A DNA stretch of 32,516 nt, from NCBI GenBank assembly GCA_025935035.1, contig JAICWB010000004.1, positions 1-32,516 of the forward strand, written 5' to 3'. Positions 7,927 through 15,142 of this stretch are shown piece by piece; position 1 is the stretch's first letter, and every line of letters begins with the position of its first letter. The translations under genes were made by a program, and so were the position numbers. This DNA is from Terriglobales bacterium (GTDB taxonomy: Bacteria > Acidobacteriota > Terriglobia > Terriglobales > Acidobacteriaceae). Below the pieces are notes generated by a model. That model saw only the letters and a program-made list of their open reading frames with translations, did no database searches and had not been told where the DNA came from.

Positions 7927-8616
7927 ATGATCAGCACTTTCCCAACTTCGGTCTTGCCGGTGGAAGCACGAGCCAGCATGAGAGTGAAGATGCTTGAAGA
8001 GCAACTGTCAAGCAACTTGAGCTCAATGATCTGCGGCTTCCACCAGCTGCTCGACTTGAAAGATCTCAACACCGGTGTCCACAGCACCCGTCTTGCAGAA
8101 TGGGCGATGCGCGTAGGCCAGGAGTTGGGAATACCGGAAGAGAGCCTGCAAGAGCTGGAGATGGCCGCCGTAGTTCATGACATCGGCAAGATCGGCGTGC
8201 CAGACGCCATCCTTAATAAGGCGGGTAAGCTTACTGACGATGAACGCGCTGTAATGAACAAACATCCTGAGTTCGGTTGGGGAGTGCTTCGGCTGTTTCC
8301 CGCACTCACCCAGACCAGTCTTATCACTCTCCACCATCACGAAAGTTTTGACGGCCGCGGCTATCCTGGTAACCTTCGCGGAAGCGAGATACCTCTTGGC
8401 GCGCGCATCGTCACCGTCATCGATTCATTCGACGCGATGGTCTCGGATCGTCCTTATCGCAAAGGCTTGCCCAGCGAGGAAGCCAAGCGGCGGTTGGTCG
8501 AGTCGTCGGGAACACAGTTTGACCCCGCCGTAGTGACGTGCTTCCTCAAGATAGTTGATACGGAATTGCCGGCGGTTCGAGCTGCAATGGGCACAGGATC
8601 TAGTTTGGTCTTCTAG
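7927..8616 (+). CDS. HD-GYP domain protein (putative cyclic-di-GMP phosphodiesterase-like)
   Basis: HDIGKIGVPD, HHHESFDGRGYPGNLRGSEIPLGARIVTVIDSFDAM. Begins 4 nt after the S8 peptidase stop. Confidence 0.93.
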   Translation: MISTFPTSVLPVEARASMRVKMLEEQLSSNLSSMICGFHQLLDLKDLNTGVHSTRLAEWAMRVGQELGIPEESLQELEMAAVVHDIGKIGVPDAILNKAGKLTDDERAVMNKHPEFGWGVLRLFPALTQTSLITLHHHESFDGRGYPGNLRGSEIPLGARIVTVIDSFDAMVSDRPYRKGLPSEEAKRRLVESSGTQFDPAVVTCFLKIVDTELPAVRAAMGTGSSLVF

Positions 8617-8751: not shown

Positions 8752-8780
8752 TTGACGATTGTCCTGTGTCTCACTACTAT
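8752..8780 (+). promoter_or_regulatory. Sigma70-type promoter for the his leader/operon
   Basis: TTGACG (8752-8757), 17-nt spacer, TACTAT (8775-8780), just upstream of the leader peptide. Confidence 0.7.
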
Positions 8781-8790
8781 ATCTTTCTAC

Positions 8791-8862
8791 GTGAACCTCT
8801 TGTTCCATCTGCACCACCATCATCACCATGCGAACAGCGTGTCGGTGGAGGAGTGCGGATAG
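8791..8862 (+). CDS. hisL: Histidine operon leader peptide (attenuator), MNLLFHLHHHHHHANSVSVEECG
   Basis: GTG AAC CTC TTG TTC CAT CTG CAC CAC CAT CAT CAC CAT GCG AAC AGC GTG TCG GTG GAG GAG TGC GGA TAG. Seven His in eight codons, followed by an intrinsic terminator and then hisI. Too short for the supplied ORF track. Confidence 0.88.
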   Translation: MNLLFHLHHHHHHANSVSVEECG

Positions 8863-8891
8863 AGACTTAGTCACATCTAGCAATCATCCCG

Positions 8892-8926
8892 GCCCGCTGA
8901 CCAAAGATCAGCGGGCTTTTTCTTTT
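8892..8926 (+). terminator. Intrinsic terminator of the his attenuator
   Basis: GCCCGCTGA-ccaaaga-TCAGCGGGC followed by TTTTTCTTTT: perfect 9-bp stem plus U-tract, 29 nt before the hisI start. Confidence 0.9.
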
Positions 8927-8955
8927 GCTCACAAATTCAACCAAAGAGGAATGTT

Positions 8956-9315
8956 ATGAAGCTGAATATAGATTTTGAAAAAATGAGTGGTCTGGTTCCA
9001 GCCATCGTGCAGGACGCAGACAATGGCGAGGTCCTGATGCTGGGATTCATGAACGCCGAATCTTACGGTCTCACGGAGGAGTCTGGCTTTGTGACTTTTT
9101 ACAGCCGCACGCGCAACAAGATTTGGATGAAAGGCGAGAGTAGCGGCAACCGCCTGGAGGTGGTTTCCGCGTCTACGGACTGTGACGTGGATACCCTACT
9201 ATTCCGTGTCCGCGTGCAAGGTGACGGTCTTGTTTGCCACGAAGGCACGCGTTCGTGTTTCACCAAGTCAATTTCTCTAAGTCCGACGGCGCAAGCGGCT
9301 GGGGTATCACGATGA
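8956..9315 (+). CDS. hisI: Phosphoribosyl-AMP cyclohydrolase (HisI only, no HisE domain)
   Basis: [57 protein letters not shown]-like AGAGGA upstream. Confidence 0.96.
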
Positions 9316-10196
9316 CAGTTGCCGGCAATAAGCTTCGCCTGGGTATCCCTAAAGGCAGTTTGCAAGACGCGACCATCGCCCTCTTCGCGAGCGCTGGTTT
9401 TAATATCTACGCCAACGGGCGTTCGTATTTTCCCACCGTGGACGATCCTGAGATCGAGTGCATGCTCATCCGCGCGCAGGAGATGGCGCGGTATGTGGAG
9501 CATGGCGCGTTAGACGCCGGATTGACGGGCAGTGACTGGGTAGCTGACAGCGGCCTGGACGTGCAGACAGTCACCGACCTGGTGTATGCAAAGCAAAGCC
9601 GTTCCAAGGTGCGGTGGGTGCTGGCTGTGCCTCAGGATTCACCGTACCAAAAAGCAGAAGACCTCAAAGACTGCATCATCGCGACCGAGTTGGTGAATAC
9701 CACGAAGAGCTATTTCAATGGCAAGAACGTGCCTGTGAAAGTGGAATTCAGCTGGGGCGCCACAGAAGTAAAACCCCCGATCCTGGCGGATGCGATCGTC
9801 GAAGTTACAGAGACGGGAAGTTCGCTGCGGGCGAACCGGCTGCGCATCATTGATACGGTCATTGAATCCGCCACCCAACTCATAGCCAACAAGAAGTCCT
9901 GGCAGAACGATTGGAAGCGCAAGAAGATTGAGAACCTGGCACTGATGTTGCGTGGTGCGATTGACGCTCAGGGCCGCGTCGGCTTGATGCTAAACGTGCG
10001 CAAGGCGCAGCTCGAGCATGTCTTGGCAGTCCTGCCCGCCTTGAATTCACCCACAGTCTCCTCATTGAGCGATGCTCAGTGGGTCGCGGTCAATACCATC
10101 CTTGAAGAATCTGTGGTCCGGGACGTGCTTCCTCGCTTGAAAGAAGTGGGAGCCACCGGCATCGTGGAATATCCGCTGAACAAGGTGGTGATGTAG
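9312..10196 (+). CDS. hisG: ATP phosphoribosyltransferase, long form
   Basis: ATG at 9312 overlaps the hisI stop. [45 protein letters not shown]. About 294 aa with the C-terminal domain typical of HisG-long. Confidence 0.96.
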
Positions 10197-11455
10197 TGCG
10201 GATAGTGAAGAGCGACATGGCAGCCGGGCGCAAAGCGATTCACGGCTTGGTGAACCGCGGAAAAACAGCAAGTTCGCGAGTAGAAGCTGCGGCACGCAAG
10301 ATCCTACGCGATGTTGAACGCAACGGGGACGCTGCTCTCCGGAGATTGGCCGTTCAGTTCGATGGCTTAGGTGCGCGACAGTCCATGATGGTGCAACGAA
10401 GCGAATTGTCGCGAGCGCTGAAAAACATGCGTAAAGCCGACCCGCAATTTCTGAACGCACTGGAAGCTGCGACGGACAACATTCGCAAATTCGCGGAATG
10501 GCAGAAGCCGCGCGAGTGGTCGCGAAAGATCCAACCGGGCGTGATCGTCGGGCAAGTCTTACGTCCGCTGGAAAGCGTCGGCTGTTATGTGCCCGGCGGC
10601 CGTTATCCGCTGCCTTCCACCTTGCTGATGACGGTGGTCCCTGCGCAAGTAGCCGGAGTGCCTCGGATCGTTGTCGTCTCTCCTCGTCCCGCGACACACA
10701 CACTGGCCGCTGCGGCGTTCCTCGGTGTCACAGAGTTCTATCGCGTAGGAGGCGCGCAAGCGATTGCTGCACTCGCCTATGGAACAAAAACCATCAGCCG
10801 GGTGCAGAAGATCGTAGGCCCGGGGAACTCTTACGTTACTGCCGCCAAGGAGCTTTGCGGTTGCCCCATCGATATGCTCGCAGGGCCCACTGAGGCGCTC
10901 ATTGTGAGTCACACCGGAAATCCACGATTTATTGCGGCTGACCTGGTCGCGCAGGCCGAGCATGACGTAGAAACCAGCGTGTGCTTTGTCACCTCCTCCT
11001 CTTCTCTCGCGGAGGCTGTCGGCGGTGAAATACGCCGATTGTCTGCAGGCAATGCGGTGGCGAAAAGTGCTCTGAAGAACGGCTACGTCGTGGTCACGCG
11101 CTCCCGCGCGGAAGCGATGGATATCGCGAATGCCATAGCCAGCGAGCACCTCACGGTGGATGTCGCAGACGCAAAAAATGTGCGCAATGCGGGCTCACTT
11201 TTTATCGGCGACTACTCCACACAGGCGGCGGGTGACTACGCGTCCGGGCCGAATCACGTTCTTCCCACCGGAGCGCTGGCCCGCGCCCGGGGCGGCTTGA
11301 GCGTGAATGATTTCTTGAAAGTCATCACCTTCCAGCAGGTGTCACGAGCGGGCTTAACTAAACTTGGGCCCTCGATCGCAAAGTTGGCGGAAGCAGAAGG
11401 CTTGAGGGCACACGCCGAGGCCGTACAGGTGCGCATGGGAGGCGGGCGTGCTTAA
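10196..11455 (+). CDS. hisD: Histidinol dehydrogenase
   Basis: GTG start overlapping the hisG stop (TAGTG). VGCYVPGGRYPLPSTLLMTVVPAQVAGV, VGPGNSYVTAAKELCG, DMLAGPTEALI, DYASGPNHVLPTGALARARGGLSVNDFLK. Confidence 0.97.
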   Translation: MRIVKSDMAAGRKAIHGLVNRGKTASSRVEAAARKILRDVERNGDAALRRLAVQFDGLGARQSMMVQRSELSRALKNMRKADPQFLNALEAATDNIRKFAEWQKPREWSRKIQPGVIVGQVLRPLESVGCYVPGGRYPLPSTLLMTVVPAQVAGVPRIVVVSPRPATHTLAAAAFLGVTEFYRVGGAQAIAALAYGTKTISRVQKIVGPGNSYVTAAKELCGCPIDMLAGPTEALIVSHTGNPRFIAADLVAQAEHDVETSVCFVTSSSSLAEAVGGEIRRLSAGNAVAKSALKNGYVVVTRSRAEAMDIANAIASEHLTVDVADAKNVRNAGSLFIGDYSTQAAGDYASGPNHVLPTGALARARGGLSVNDFLKVITFQQVSRAGLTKLGPSIAKLAEAEGLRAHAEAVQVRMGGGRA

Positions 11456-12539
11456 AGCGAGAGATGCCGTGATCGCGATGAAGGAGTACCATCCACCGCT
11501 CGCCGGCCGACAAGGACTGCGGCTCGATTTCAATGAGAACACCAGCGGGTGTTCACCGAAGGGTTTGGCTCGTTTGCGGAACATCAACGCCGATGACCTC
11601 GCGCGTTATCCCGAACGCGCGCCGGTTGAAGCTATGGTCGCGGCAAAGCTCGGACTCACGCCGGAACAAGTCTTGCTAACGAACGGGGTTGATGAAGCTA
11701 TCCACCTTCTTTCTGAAACATATCTGGAACCAGATGACGAAGCCATTGTGGTGGTTCCGACGTTCGGCATGTACGAGGTTTTCGTGCAGCAGACCGGCTC
11801 AAGGGTCATATTTGTGCAGGCAAATGCAGGCGACTTCAGTTTTCCTATTGCCGCGGTTCTGGCAGCGATAACGCCAAGTACTAAATTCATTGCTTTCGCC
11901 AGCCCGAATAATCCTACAGGCGGAGTGATCAAGCTGGATGACTTGCTCGCCATCCTTGTTGCCGCGCCGCAAGCAGCCGTCTTGCTTGACGAAGCCTACT
12001 TTGATTTTCACGGAGAAACGTTCTTGCCCGAGATCGAACAAAACGCAAACTTGTTTATCGCGCGGACTTTCTCAAAAGCATATGGACTGGCGGCTTTCCG
12101 CACAGGCTTTCTCGCGGCGGACGCAACGACGTTGAAGATGGTGCGCAAAGTTGCTTCGCCTTACAACGTGAACGGTGTTTCGCTCGCCTGCCTGGAAAGC
12201 GCCCTAGATGATAAAGACTACGTCGCCGATTACGTCCAACAGATTCTCGGCGGACGGGCGCTGCTTGAAAAGGAATTCGAATCACTTGGGATCCCGTTCT
12301 GGCCGAGTTGCGCGAACTTCGTACTGTGTCGCATCGGAGAGGCGCACAAGGAATTTGTGACCGCGATGCGCGAACGCGGTGTTCTGGTACGCGACCGCGA
12401 TTCCGATCCTGGGTGCAGTGGCTGCGTGCGCATCACGATAGGCACCACCGAGCAAATGGAAACGCTTCTATCCGCGTTTCGCGACGTCTGCTCTACGTTG
12501 CAGATATCCGGCCCGCTTCGCGCTGGGGCATCGCGATGA
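11448..12539 (+). CDS. hisC: Histidinol-phosphate aminotransferase
   Basis: GTG start overlapping his[50 protein letters not shown]. Confidence 0.95.
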
Positions 12540-13123
12540 GAAAAGCCACGATCAGGCGCAAGACCAATGAGACTGAGATCATGCTGAATCTCACCATTGA
12601 GGGCAAAGGCGTTTATAAAGTTTCCACAGGCATTCGTTTTCTTGATCACATGCTGGAGCTTTTCGCGCGTCATGGCGCTTTTAATCTCACGCTAAAGTGC
12701 AAAGGTGACCTCGACGTAGATCAGCACCACACCGTCGAGGACGTCGGCATAGCGCTCGGGGAAGCATTGAGCCGCTCTCTTGGAGACAAGCGCGGGATCT
12801 TGCGGGCGGGCTATTTCCTGATGCCCATGGATGAGACGCTGGGCATGGCAGCTATCGATTTAAGCGGACGCGCGCAGGCCGTCATTGAGACAAAGGTAAA
12901 AGCGCATTACGTCGGCGACCTGCAATCGGAGCTCGTAGTTGATTTCTTCGAAGGCTTCGCTCGCGGTGCGCGCGCCAATGTCCACATCAAGACGCTCTAT
13001 GGCCGTTCCAACCATCACAAGATCGAGGCGTTATTCAAAGCGTTTGCGCGCGCGTTGCGCGTGGCGTGCTCGAAAGATAAACGTCTCGCCAAAATGCTTC
13101 CCAGTACGAAAGGGCTGCTGTGA
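12536..13123 (+). CDS. hisB: Imidazoleglycerol-phosphate dehydratase (monofunctional)
   Basis: ATG at 12536 overlaps the hisC stop. [74 protein letters not shown]. Confidence 0.97.
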
Positions 13124-13716
13124 TCGCAATAATCGATTACCGTGCCGGGAATCTGGCCTCAGTAAAAAAAGCCTTCGATCATCTGGGAGCGGAATGTCTC
13201 GTCACATCTGGTCCTGCGGAAGCGCGGTCCGCTAACAAGCTGGTTCTGCCCGGCGTCGGGCATTTTTCGGCAACGCAGGCCCTCGACGAACTGGGGCTTA
13301 GACCGGCGATCGAAGAAAGCATCTCAGCTGGGAAACCGTTCCTCGGGATATGTGTCGGGATGCAGTGGATGTTTGCCGGCAGCAGTGAAGCGCCGCAGGT
13401 GAGAGGCCTTGGTTTGTTTGCCGGCCAATGCTCCCGGTTTTCTTCCGCCGTGAAGTCGCCGCATGTCGGTTGGAATACGCTAAGCCCGCGCGGAAGATCG
13501 CGGTTGCTCGCCGGGCTTAGCGACCAAGTTTTCGCCTACTTCACTCATTCTTATCGCGCTCCTATTGGCGCAGATTGTGTCTCAACTACAACCTATGATG
13601 GAGACTTTGCTTCCATCGTGGAACGCGGCAACCTATTTGGGGTGCAGTTCCATCCGGAAAAGTCCGGGGATGCCGGCCTGCGCATTCTGCGCAATTTCGT
13701 GGAATTGCCATGTTGA
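13120..13716 (+). CDS. hisH: Imidazole glycerol phosphate synthase, glutamine amidotransferase subunit
   Basis: [57 protein letters not shown]. Confidence 0.97.
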
Positions 13717-14474
13717 CGAAACGAGTGATCGCTTGCCTGGATTGCCAGAACGGCCGCGTGGTCAAAGGCGTGCAATTTCTCGATTTGCGCGATGCCGGCG
13801 ATCCCGCCGAACTAGCCATCACGCATGCCGCCGCCGGCGCGGACGAGATCGTTTTGCTTGATATCACGGCTACGCATGAGGCCCGCAAGACATTACTCGA
13901 CACCGTGCGCCGGACAGCGCAGAATCTTTTTGTTCCACTGACCGTCGGCGGCGGGATTCAGACTGTTGACGATGCTGCGCGAGTGTTTGACTGCGGCGCT
14001 GACAAAATCAGTATTAACTCGGCTGCCGTGACTCGCCCGGATCTGATCGCGGAGATCGGCAGCCGTTTCGGTTCACAGGCGGTTATGGTCGCCATCGATG
14101 CCAAATGCAATGAGCAGGGCATAGACGAGGTCGTCACCGCCGGTGGGCGCAATGCGACCGGAAGGCGCGTCGTCGATTGGGCTCGCGAAGCGGAAACAAG
14201 AGGTGCCGGCGAAATACTTCTCACCTCGATGCGCAACGACGGCACTCAGGCAGGATTTGACTGCGCGCTGACCAGCGCGGTGGCTGAATCGGTCCAGGTC
14301 CCCGTTATCGCTTCCGGCGGCGCCGGGAACGAACGTCACTTCGTCGAGGTGTTTGAGAAAGGACGGGCTGACGCGGCCCTTGCGGCATCAATCCTCCACT
14401 TTGGCACCCACACTATCGCAAACATCAAGCTTGCCATGCGCAACGCAGGCATTCCAGTGAGGCTGCCATGCTGA
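13710..14474 (+). CDS. hisF: Imidazole glycerol phosphate synthase, cyclase subunit
   Basis: [86 protein letters not shown]. Confidence 0.97.
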
Positions 14475-15142
14475 TCCCGTGCATCGATGTCATGAAAGGA
14501 AAGGTAGTGCAACTGATTCGAGGCGAGAAGAAGGCCATTGAACTGGATGATCCTGAACCCTGGCTTTGCCGCTTTGAAAAATATCCATTGATCCACGTGG
14601 TCGACCTCGACGCCGCAATGGGCCATGGCTCGAACCGCGCGTTCATAGCGCGACTTCTAAACCGGTTGCCTTGTCAGGTAGGGGGAGGCGTCCGCAGCCT
14701 GGCAGACGCGAAAGATCTTCTCGCCATCGGCGCCAAGCGGGTAGTCGTTGGTTCTGCTCTCGTAGCCAATGGCGGCATAGACACGGACTTCGCTCAATCT
14801 CTCGCACTGGCGTTTGGCACCGAACGCCTGGCCTTTGCGGTCGATTCCAAGAACGGCGCTCTGGCGATTCGGGGATGGAAAGAAACCGTCAGCATCACCT
14901 CGCGTGAGGCTGTTCACAAGCTGGATAACTTTTGCTCCGCTTTCTTATATACGAATGTGAACAACGAAGGCTTGCTAAAAGGGTTCCCGATCGAAGAGGC
15001 TCAAACTCTCCGCGTTGCCACCAAGAAACAGCTCATCGTGGGCGGCGGCATCAACTCGGCGCATCAGATCGCACAGCTCGACGCGATGGGCGTGGACTCG
15101 ATCGCGGGCATGGCGATCTACACCAACGCGATCGCCTTTTGA
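14468..15142 (+). CDS. hisA: Phosphoribosylformimino-5-aminoimidazole carboxamide ribotide isomerase
   Basis: [91 protein letters not shown]. Confidence 0.93.

Follow-up and report, generated by a model that had tools for sequence, protein, structure and literature searches.

A probable ribosome-mediated attenuator with an apparently leaderless His-rich leader ORF ahead of the hisIGDCBHFA operon in Acidobacteriota

Leader-peptide attenuation is documented in Proteobacteria, Actinobacteria and some Firmicutes. The enteric his leader (hisL of E. coli and Salmonella) comprises more segments than one 1:2 / 2:3 / 3:4 set. A trp-type attenuator whose transcript starts with the leader ORF, giving rise to a small leaderless mRNA, is known from trpL of Sinorhizobium meliloti (PMC7298713). 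Among Firmicutes, His-leader attenuators were predicted in the B. cereus group, Peptostreptococcaceae and Erysipelotrichales, and for hisS and hisZ of Bacillus, with three to five consecutive His codons and predicted terminators and antiterminators (PMC9413887, PMC2965389). Mycobacterial cys operons carry a Cys-codon-rich leader ORF ahead of sulfur assimilation genes, without a clear terminator hairpin (PMC1262725). As for Acidobacteria, almost none of the attenuators predicted in a 2010 survey had a known function (PMC2965389), and leaderless genes were estimated at 13% in three genomes (PMC3160421). Our literature search returned general mentions only of attenuation in Acidobacteria and no report of a His-leader attenuator for Acidobacteriota; subscription papers were outside its reach, and an earlier report may exist in Vitreschak 2004 or Lopatovskaya 2010.

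Here we analysed the his locus in a stretch of 32,516 nucleotides (“the window”; contig JAICWB010000004.1 of GCA_025935035.1) from a Terriglobales genome assembled to 2.98 Mb in 354 contigs. As in the enteric his leader, a short ORF with consecutive His codons is followed by an intrinsic terminator and the first his gene, and ribosome stalling would choose between alternative hairpins. Unlike in that leader, the ORF has no Shine-Dalgarno sequence and its start codon lies 10 nt past the −10 box, the RNA is predicted to form a single 1:2 / 2:3 / 3:4 set with segment 2 within the ORF, and the first gene is hisI instead of hisG. Similarly to S. meliloti trpL, the leader ORF would, judging from spacing, stand at the very start of its transcript; it differs in coding for His instead of Trp, in the phylum and in its unrelated sequence. 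In contrast to the Firmicutes His leaders, predicted in few species, the element is nearly universal in the family, extends to other classes of the phylum and shows covariation. Neither the Rfam His_leader nor the T-box covariance model matched the window at the gathering score or at E ≤ 10; weak Rfam matches (Trp_leader, MIR5229, RybB, thermometer) were at chance level, with nothing at gathering. We consider it very probable that the element attenuates transcription of the hisIGDCBHFA operon by a ribosome-mediated mechanism. A sequence-only reading of the window had proposed his attenuation as known from enteric operons; comparison of about 150 loci supports attenuation, with the layout being a three-hairpin, apparently leaderless variant.

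The his locus and conservation of its leader

Nearest named relatives by HisI were Acidobacteriaceae, namely Terriglobus roseus DSM 18391 (L199), Edaphobacter, Granulicella, Acidipila, Terracidiphilus and Acidicapsa. Both the phylum and the operon downstream of the leader had been anticipated from the letters alone; the former was borne out by comparison with about 150 loci and the latter by Pfam and NCBIfam, which gave the order hisI-G-D-C-B-H-F-A with the end at 15142. The features of the locus, all on the forward strand, are as follows.

8752–8780, forward: sigma-70-type promoter TTGACG-17-TACTAT, with TTGACG at 8752–8757 and TACTAT at 8775–8780 (sequence reading, relatives)
8791–8862, forward: hisL-like leader ORF MNLLFHLHHHHHHANSVSVEECG with GTG start, putatively leaderless (sequence, relatives)
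8806–8829, forward: regulatory His codons CAT CTG CAC CAC CAT CAT CAC CAT (sequence, relatives)
8807–8860, forward: predicted 1:2 hairpin, AUCUGCAC (8807–8814) with GUGCGGAU (8853–8860), inner stems to 8844–8848 (folding)
8841–8848, forward: segment 2, GUCGGUGG, antiterminator 5' strand inside the leader ORF, V-S-V-E codons (covariation, own-versus-swapped test)
8891–8926, forward: intrinsic terminator, 3:4 hairpin 8891–8917 and U tract 8917–8926 (sequence, folding, covariation)
8894–8901, forward: segment 3, CCGCUGAC, antiterminator 3' strand, of which 8894–8900 is also terminator 5' arm (covariation)
8945–8950, forward: AGAGGA, Shine-Dalgarno-like, for hisI (sequence reading)
8956–9315, forward: hisI, phosphoribosyl-AMP cyclohydrolase, with ATG at 8956 (Pfam/NCBIfam)
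9312–15142, forward: hisG, hisD, hisC, hisB, hisH, hisF and hisA, adjoining or overlapping (Pfam/NCBIfam)

The leader ORF contains 7 His codons among 23, with CAT and CAC mixed, and in a near relative (L032) the codon matching the GTG of the window is ATG. An upstream TTG start inside the −35 box (36 aa) was rejected: it precedes the expected transcription start, and the ATG of relatives aligns with GTG 8791.

Operon starts were collected with HisI from 60 relatives and from a spread across the phylum. A leader was scored when a short ORF on the sense strand, no more than 350 nt upstream, had four or more His within eight residues, and the locus set consisted of loci with hisI followed by hisG. 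Across the phylum, 82 of the 86 hisI-first loci of the first set had a His-rich leader ORF, as did 69 of 72 additional distinct hisI-first loci from named genomes. All three misses of the second set were loci cut by a contig end 51–160 nt upstream. Among the misses of the first set, L005 carries MAATLTTNRHHRIHIPSGQWAPV, an ORF less rich in His, where the covariance model described below matched the element (G053:C28, E 2.9e-6); L007, L060 and L061 had no His-rich leader ORF. When a fixed threshold was applied per residue group to hisI-first loci, a His-rich short ORF was present in 145/155 on the sense and 0/155 on the antisense strand, and residues other than His were rare. No His-rich leader ORF was found in loci with hisI internal to the operon.

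Positive loci outside the class of the window belonged to several families of the phylum (L101–L111, L113–L118). Leaders carried 4–11 His (median 7; 148 loci), and both the sequence and the length of the peptide drift among relatives while the His run is kept. Across Acidobacteriota, the leader element appears to be the rule where hisI leads the operon.

Upstream of the leader and on the same strand, the window has an HD-domain gene (7927–8616) without a homologue at the same place in 148 other loci; the upstream neighbourhood of the his operon is therefore variable. It should also be added that a genome of the same genus listed as 100% complete (G001) gave no match for PRA-CH (hisI); it is possibly a His auxotroph, or the enzyme may have diverged.

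The promoter and the terminator were likewise compared. A TTGACA-like box, 15–19 nt and a TAnnnT-like box preceded the leader ORF in 139/148 relatives versus 46/148 shuffled sequences. In 134 of the 148, the start codon followed the −10 box by 5–13 nt (median 9); in the window, 10 nt separate the box from the GTG. Shine-Dalgarno-like GGAG or AGGA was missing before the leader ORF in most of the 148 loci, and none was consistent. From the −10-to-start spacing, the transcript would begin about 0–5 nt ahead of the start codon. These comparisons suggest that the leader ORF is apparently leaderless, a feature that the sequence-only reading had missed. GTG starts are used with lower efficiency than ATG on leaderless mRNA.

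The terminator hairpin of the window (8891–8917) has 9 Watson-Crick pairs and one G-U, followed by TTTTTCTTTT. A simple scan detected a terminator past the leader ORF and ahead of the first structural gene in 58/82 loci, and additional ones were seen by eye. The sequence-only reading had pointed at the TTGACG-N17-TACTAT promoter, the GTG ORF with a His-rich peptide and a 9-bp GC-rich hairpin with a U tract before hisI, all of which are present, the hairpin having the G-U as an extra pair; alignment of the regions upstream of hisI, the check it had put forward, revealed that the His run and the terminator are conserved in relatives.

Alternative pairings in the leader RNA

To assess covariation, 53 relatives belonging to the family were aligned with MAFFT, structure playing no part in the alignment. 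For the terminator 3:4 helix, 90.7% of cells were paired, with 43 compensatory cells. For the 2:3 helix, 90.2% of cells were paired, with double changes at 5 pairs and 27 compensatory cells; no shuffle out of 500 scored as high in cells paired, compensatory cells or covariation score, and slid controls gave 28–59% of cells paired. Counterparts of this antiterminator in relatives were GUGUCGGCGG:CCGCUGACGC, GUGUUGGCGG:CCGCUAACGC or UGCCGGCGG:CCGCCGGCA. Helices 2:3 and 3:4 both use segment 3, as is required of mutually exclusive structures. Moreover, alignment columns 19-91-105 and 21-89-107 changed jointly across all three segments, which is expected where a single segment has to be complementary to two others. 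Across 148 loci, own 2:3 helices scored 23.9 versus 20.2 (sd 0.21) when partners were exchanged between species.

Taken by itself, the window has a weak 2:3 helix of 6 Watson-Crick and 2 G-U pairs that is not significant against shuffles (p 0.25); outside the family the pairing is plausible, and significance was not reached there. A different antiterminator, CAGCG (8835–8839) with CGCTG (8895–8899), had been suggested in the sequence-only reading. It was rejected, having 57.5% of cells paired in the 53 relatives, zero compensatory change and a nearly equal slid control at +3.

Folding for competing structures, also proposed in that reading, gave z-scores of −4.4 for the whole leader and −3.4 for the terminator alone. 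The leader ORF of the window, harbouring the predicted 1:2 hairpin, folded with an MFE of −26.9 kcal/mol (z −2.6), whereas across all relatives the mean z of the leader ORF was −1.2; among relatives the 1:2 hairpin is weakly supported.

A covariance model, R1, was made from segments 2–4 of the his leader element. In the own genome it returned one strong match, at the his leader (8827–8933, E 3.8e-16), and its best matches in relatives were immediately ahead of hisI. A second copy of the antiterminator/terminator module was observed at a non-his locus (L310, G009:C150:746-851), where the leader ORF is without a His run (MFSATISPTLSHPRPQPRLFALRVSGGADQE); it looks like a his leader that was duplicated and then decayed.

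Leaders ahead of cysteine, aromatic and other genes

Weaker full-length R1 matches were not all noise, as Cys-rich and aromatic-rich leaders were among them. Leaders were located ahead of DAHP synthase (L309, MIPTCISRFTYYWYYRTNGRDLP; L313, MYLYAAFRFWYFGTSGRGVS), CysD (L312, MSLNPLMPVSCRCRACACCQSAEGCDLG), Sat and CysH (L311, containing CCC) and sulfite/nitrite reductase (L322, VMCCACCCARAGLVSE). A direct scan found Cys-rich leaders in 22 of 30 sulfite/nitrite reductase loci, e.g. MSACAHTVCMCCCCPCC and MMSAFYTCCQCCCCCCMC, most of them followed by a hairpin and a T run, and aromatic-rich leaders in 8/30 DAHP synthase loci; the antisense count was 0 in either case. The acidobacterial Cys leaders resemble those of mycobacteria in their Cys codons and differ in that a terminator hairpin mostly follows.

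In Terriglobia, Cys-rich leaders were observed at L364–L393 (upstream of NIR_SIR genes), L311, L312, L320, L322 and L323, most with a terminator following; downstream genes were sulfite/nitrite reductase, CysD, Sat/CysH and a PAPS reductase gene. Leaders rich in Phe, Tyr and Trp, with terminators, were recorded ahead of DAHP synthase at L309, L313, L315–L317, L319, L321, L337, L338, L347, L348, L358 and L361. The upstream regions of ilvB and pheS in relatives had no enriched leader of the same kind, and trpE in relatives had no family-wide Trp leader. Just before trpE, the own genome (L220, G000:C13) and a member of the same genus (L229) have an ORF MRSLYICYLRSTWWASLPTQR with TGG TGG and a T run past the stop; three further genomes of that genus lack this ORF. 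The own genome also has an ORF ending in VCATTMAMCMCMCCPCERNGDLST and then a terminator ahead of a gene without Pfam match (L333, G000:C79:9300-10767), and a similar MAMCMHICTFRREELLT stands ahead of homoserine dehydrogenase at L327.

It seems likely that Acidobacteriota have phylum-wide leaderless ribosome-mediated attenuators for histidine, cysteine, aromatic amino acids and perhaps more, sharing one RNA layout without a database family. This reading covers hisIGDCBHFA; sulfite reductase, CysD and Sat/CysH; and DAHP synthase.

Proposed mechanism, competing explanations and significance

At the level of sequence comparison, the leader peptide, the terminator, the 2:3 antiterminator and the promoter-to-start spacing are established. 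From these we infer where transcription exactly starts, the ribosome stall and the response to histidine. Transcription would start beside the GTG at which the leader ORF opens, and the leader would consequently be translated as a leaderless mRNA. With sufficient His-tRNA, the ribosome would read through the His run, arrive at the stop codon and cover or pass segment 2 (8841–8848); segments 3 and 4 would then pair, and RNA polymerase would terminate at 8917–8926. When His-tRNA is scarce, the ribosome would stall on the His codons, leaving segment 2 free to pair with segment 3 (8894–8901), whereby the terminator would be blocked and the operon transcribed. The geometry of the window is compatible with this: a ribosome stalled in codons 6–13 (8806–8829) would not block segment 2, allowing helix 2:3 to arise ahead of the synthesis of segment 4, while a ribosome at the stop codon (8860–8862) would cover most of 8841–8848, so that 3:4 forms. 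In some genera with a longer peptide tail (SVLAAVSGVAK), segment 2 sits 20–32 nt before the stop codon, and a ribosome at the stop would therefore not cover the whole of it; in these genera the 1:2 hairpin or an early ribosome release would have to take over.

Terminators in leaders are common to many genes, and the terminator and short ORF could represent a constitutive attenuator or a filter at the 5' end, perhaps with Rho, that does not sense histidine and has the His run as a by-product. We judge this very unlikely, given that the run matches the residue the operon makes and is kept while other positions of the peptide drift, that the antiterminator covaries with the terminator and that the Cys and aromatic leaders stand ahead of matching pathways. 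Even less probable in our view is a functional His-rich small protein, e.g. metal-binding, co-transcribed with the his genes and perhaps having an extra role in trans. Such action is known for peTrpL of S. meliloti (PMC7298713), and part of the family has kept the C-terminal V-S-A-x-x-C-G of the leader peptide; however, these codons overlap antiterminator segment 2, in which paired bases change together, so RNA pairing explains their conservation, and the ORF occurs only ahead of operon-first hisI. The peptide may still act in trans as a supplement to attenuation. That the hairpin terminates the HD-domain gene, which does lie upstream on the same strand, and that the short ORF arose by chance can practically be dismissed, since this gene is present in 1 of 149 loci while leader, terminator and hisI occur together in relatives and thus travel as a unit of which the terminator, not belonging to that gene, is a part, and since the promoter sits between the gene and the hairpin.

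Attenuation of the his operon by a translating ribosome is well supported; it is a mechanism of an already known type, resembling in its presumed working the enteric his and trp attenuators, and the points of interest are the apparently leaderless start and the siblings for other amino acids. The element offers a concrete, testable attenuator for Acidobacteriota, near-universal wherever hisI leads the operon, and its covariance model has already led to the Cys and aromatic leaders. The start, conserved and apparently leaderless, raises the testable question of how a ribosome loading at the 5' end would keep pace with RNA polymerase during attenuation. Furthermore, a regulatory annotation is gained for major soil bacteria in which genetic tools are scarce.
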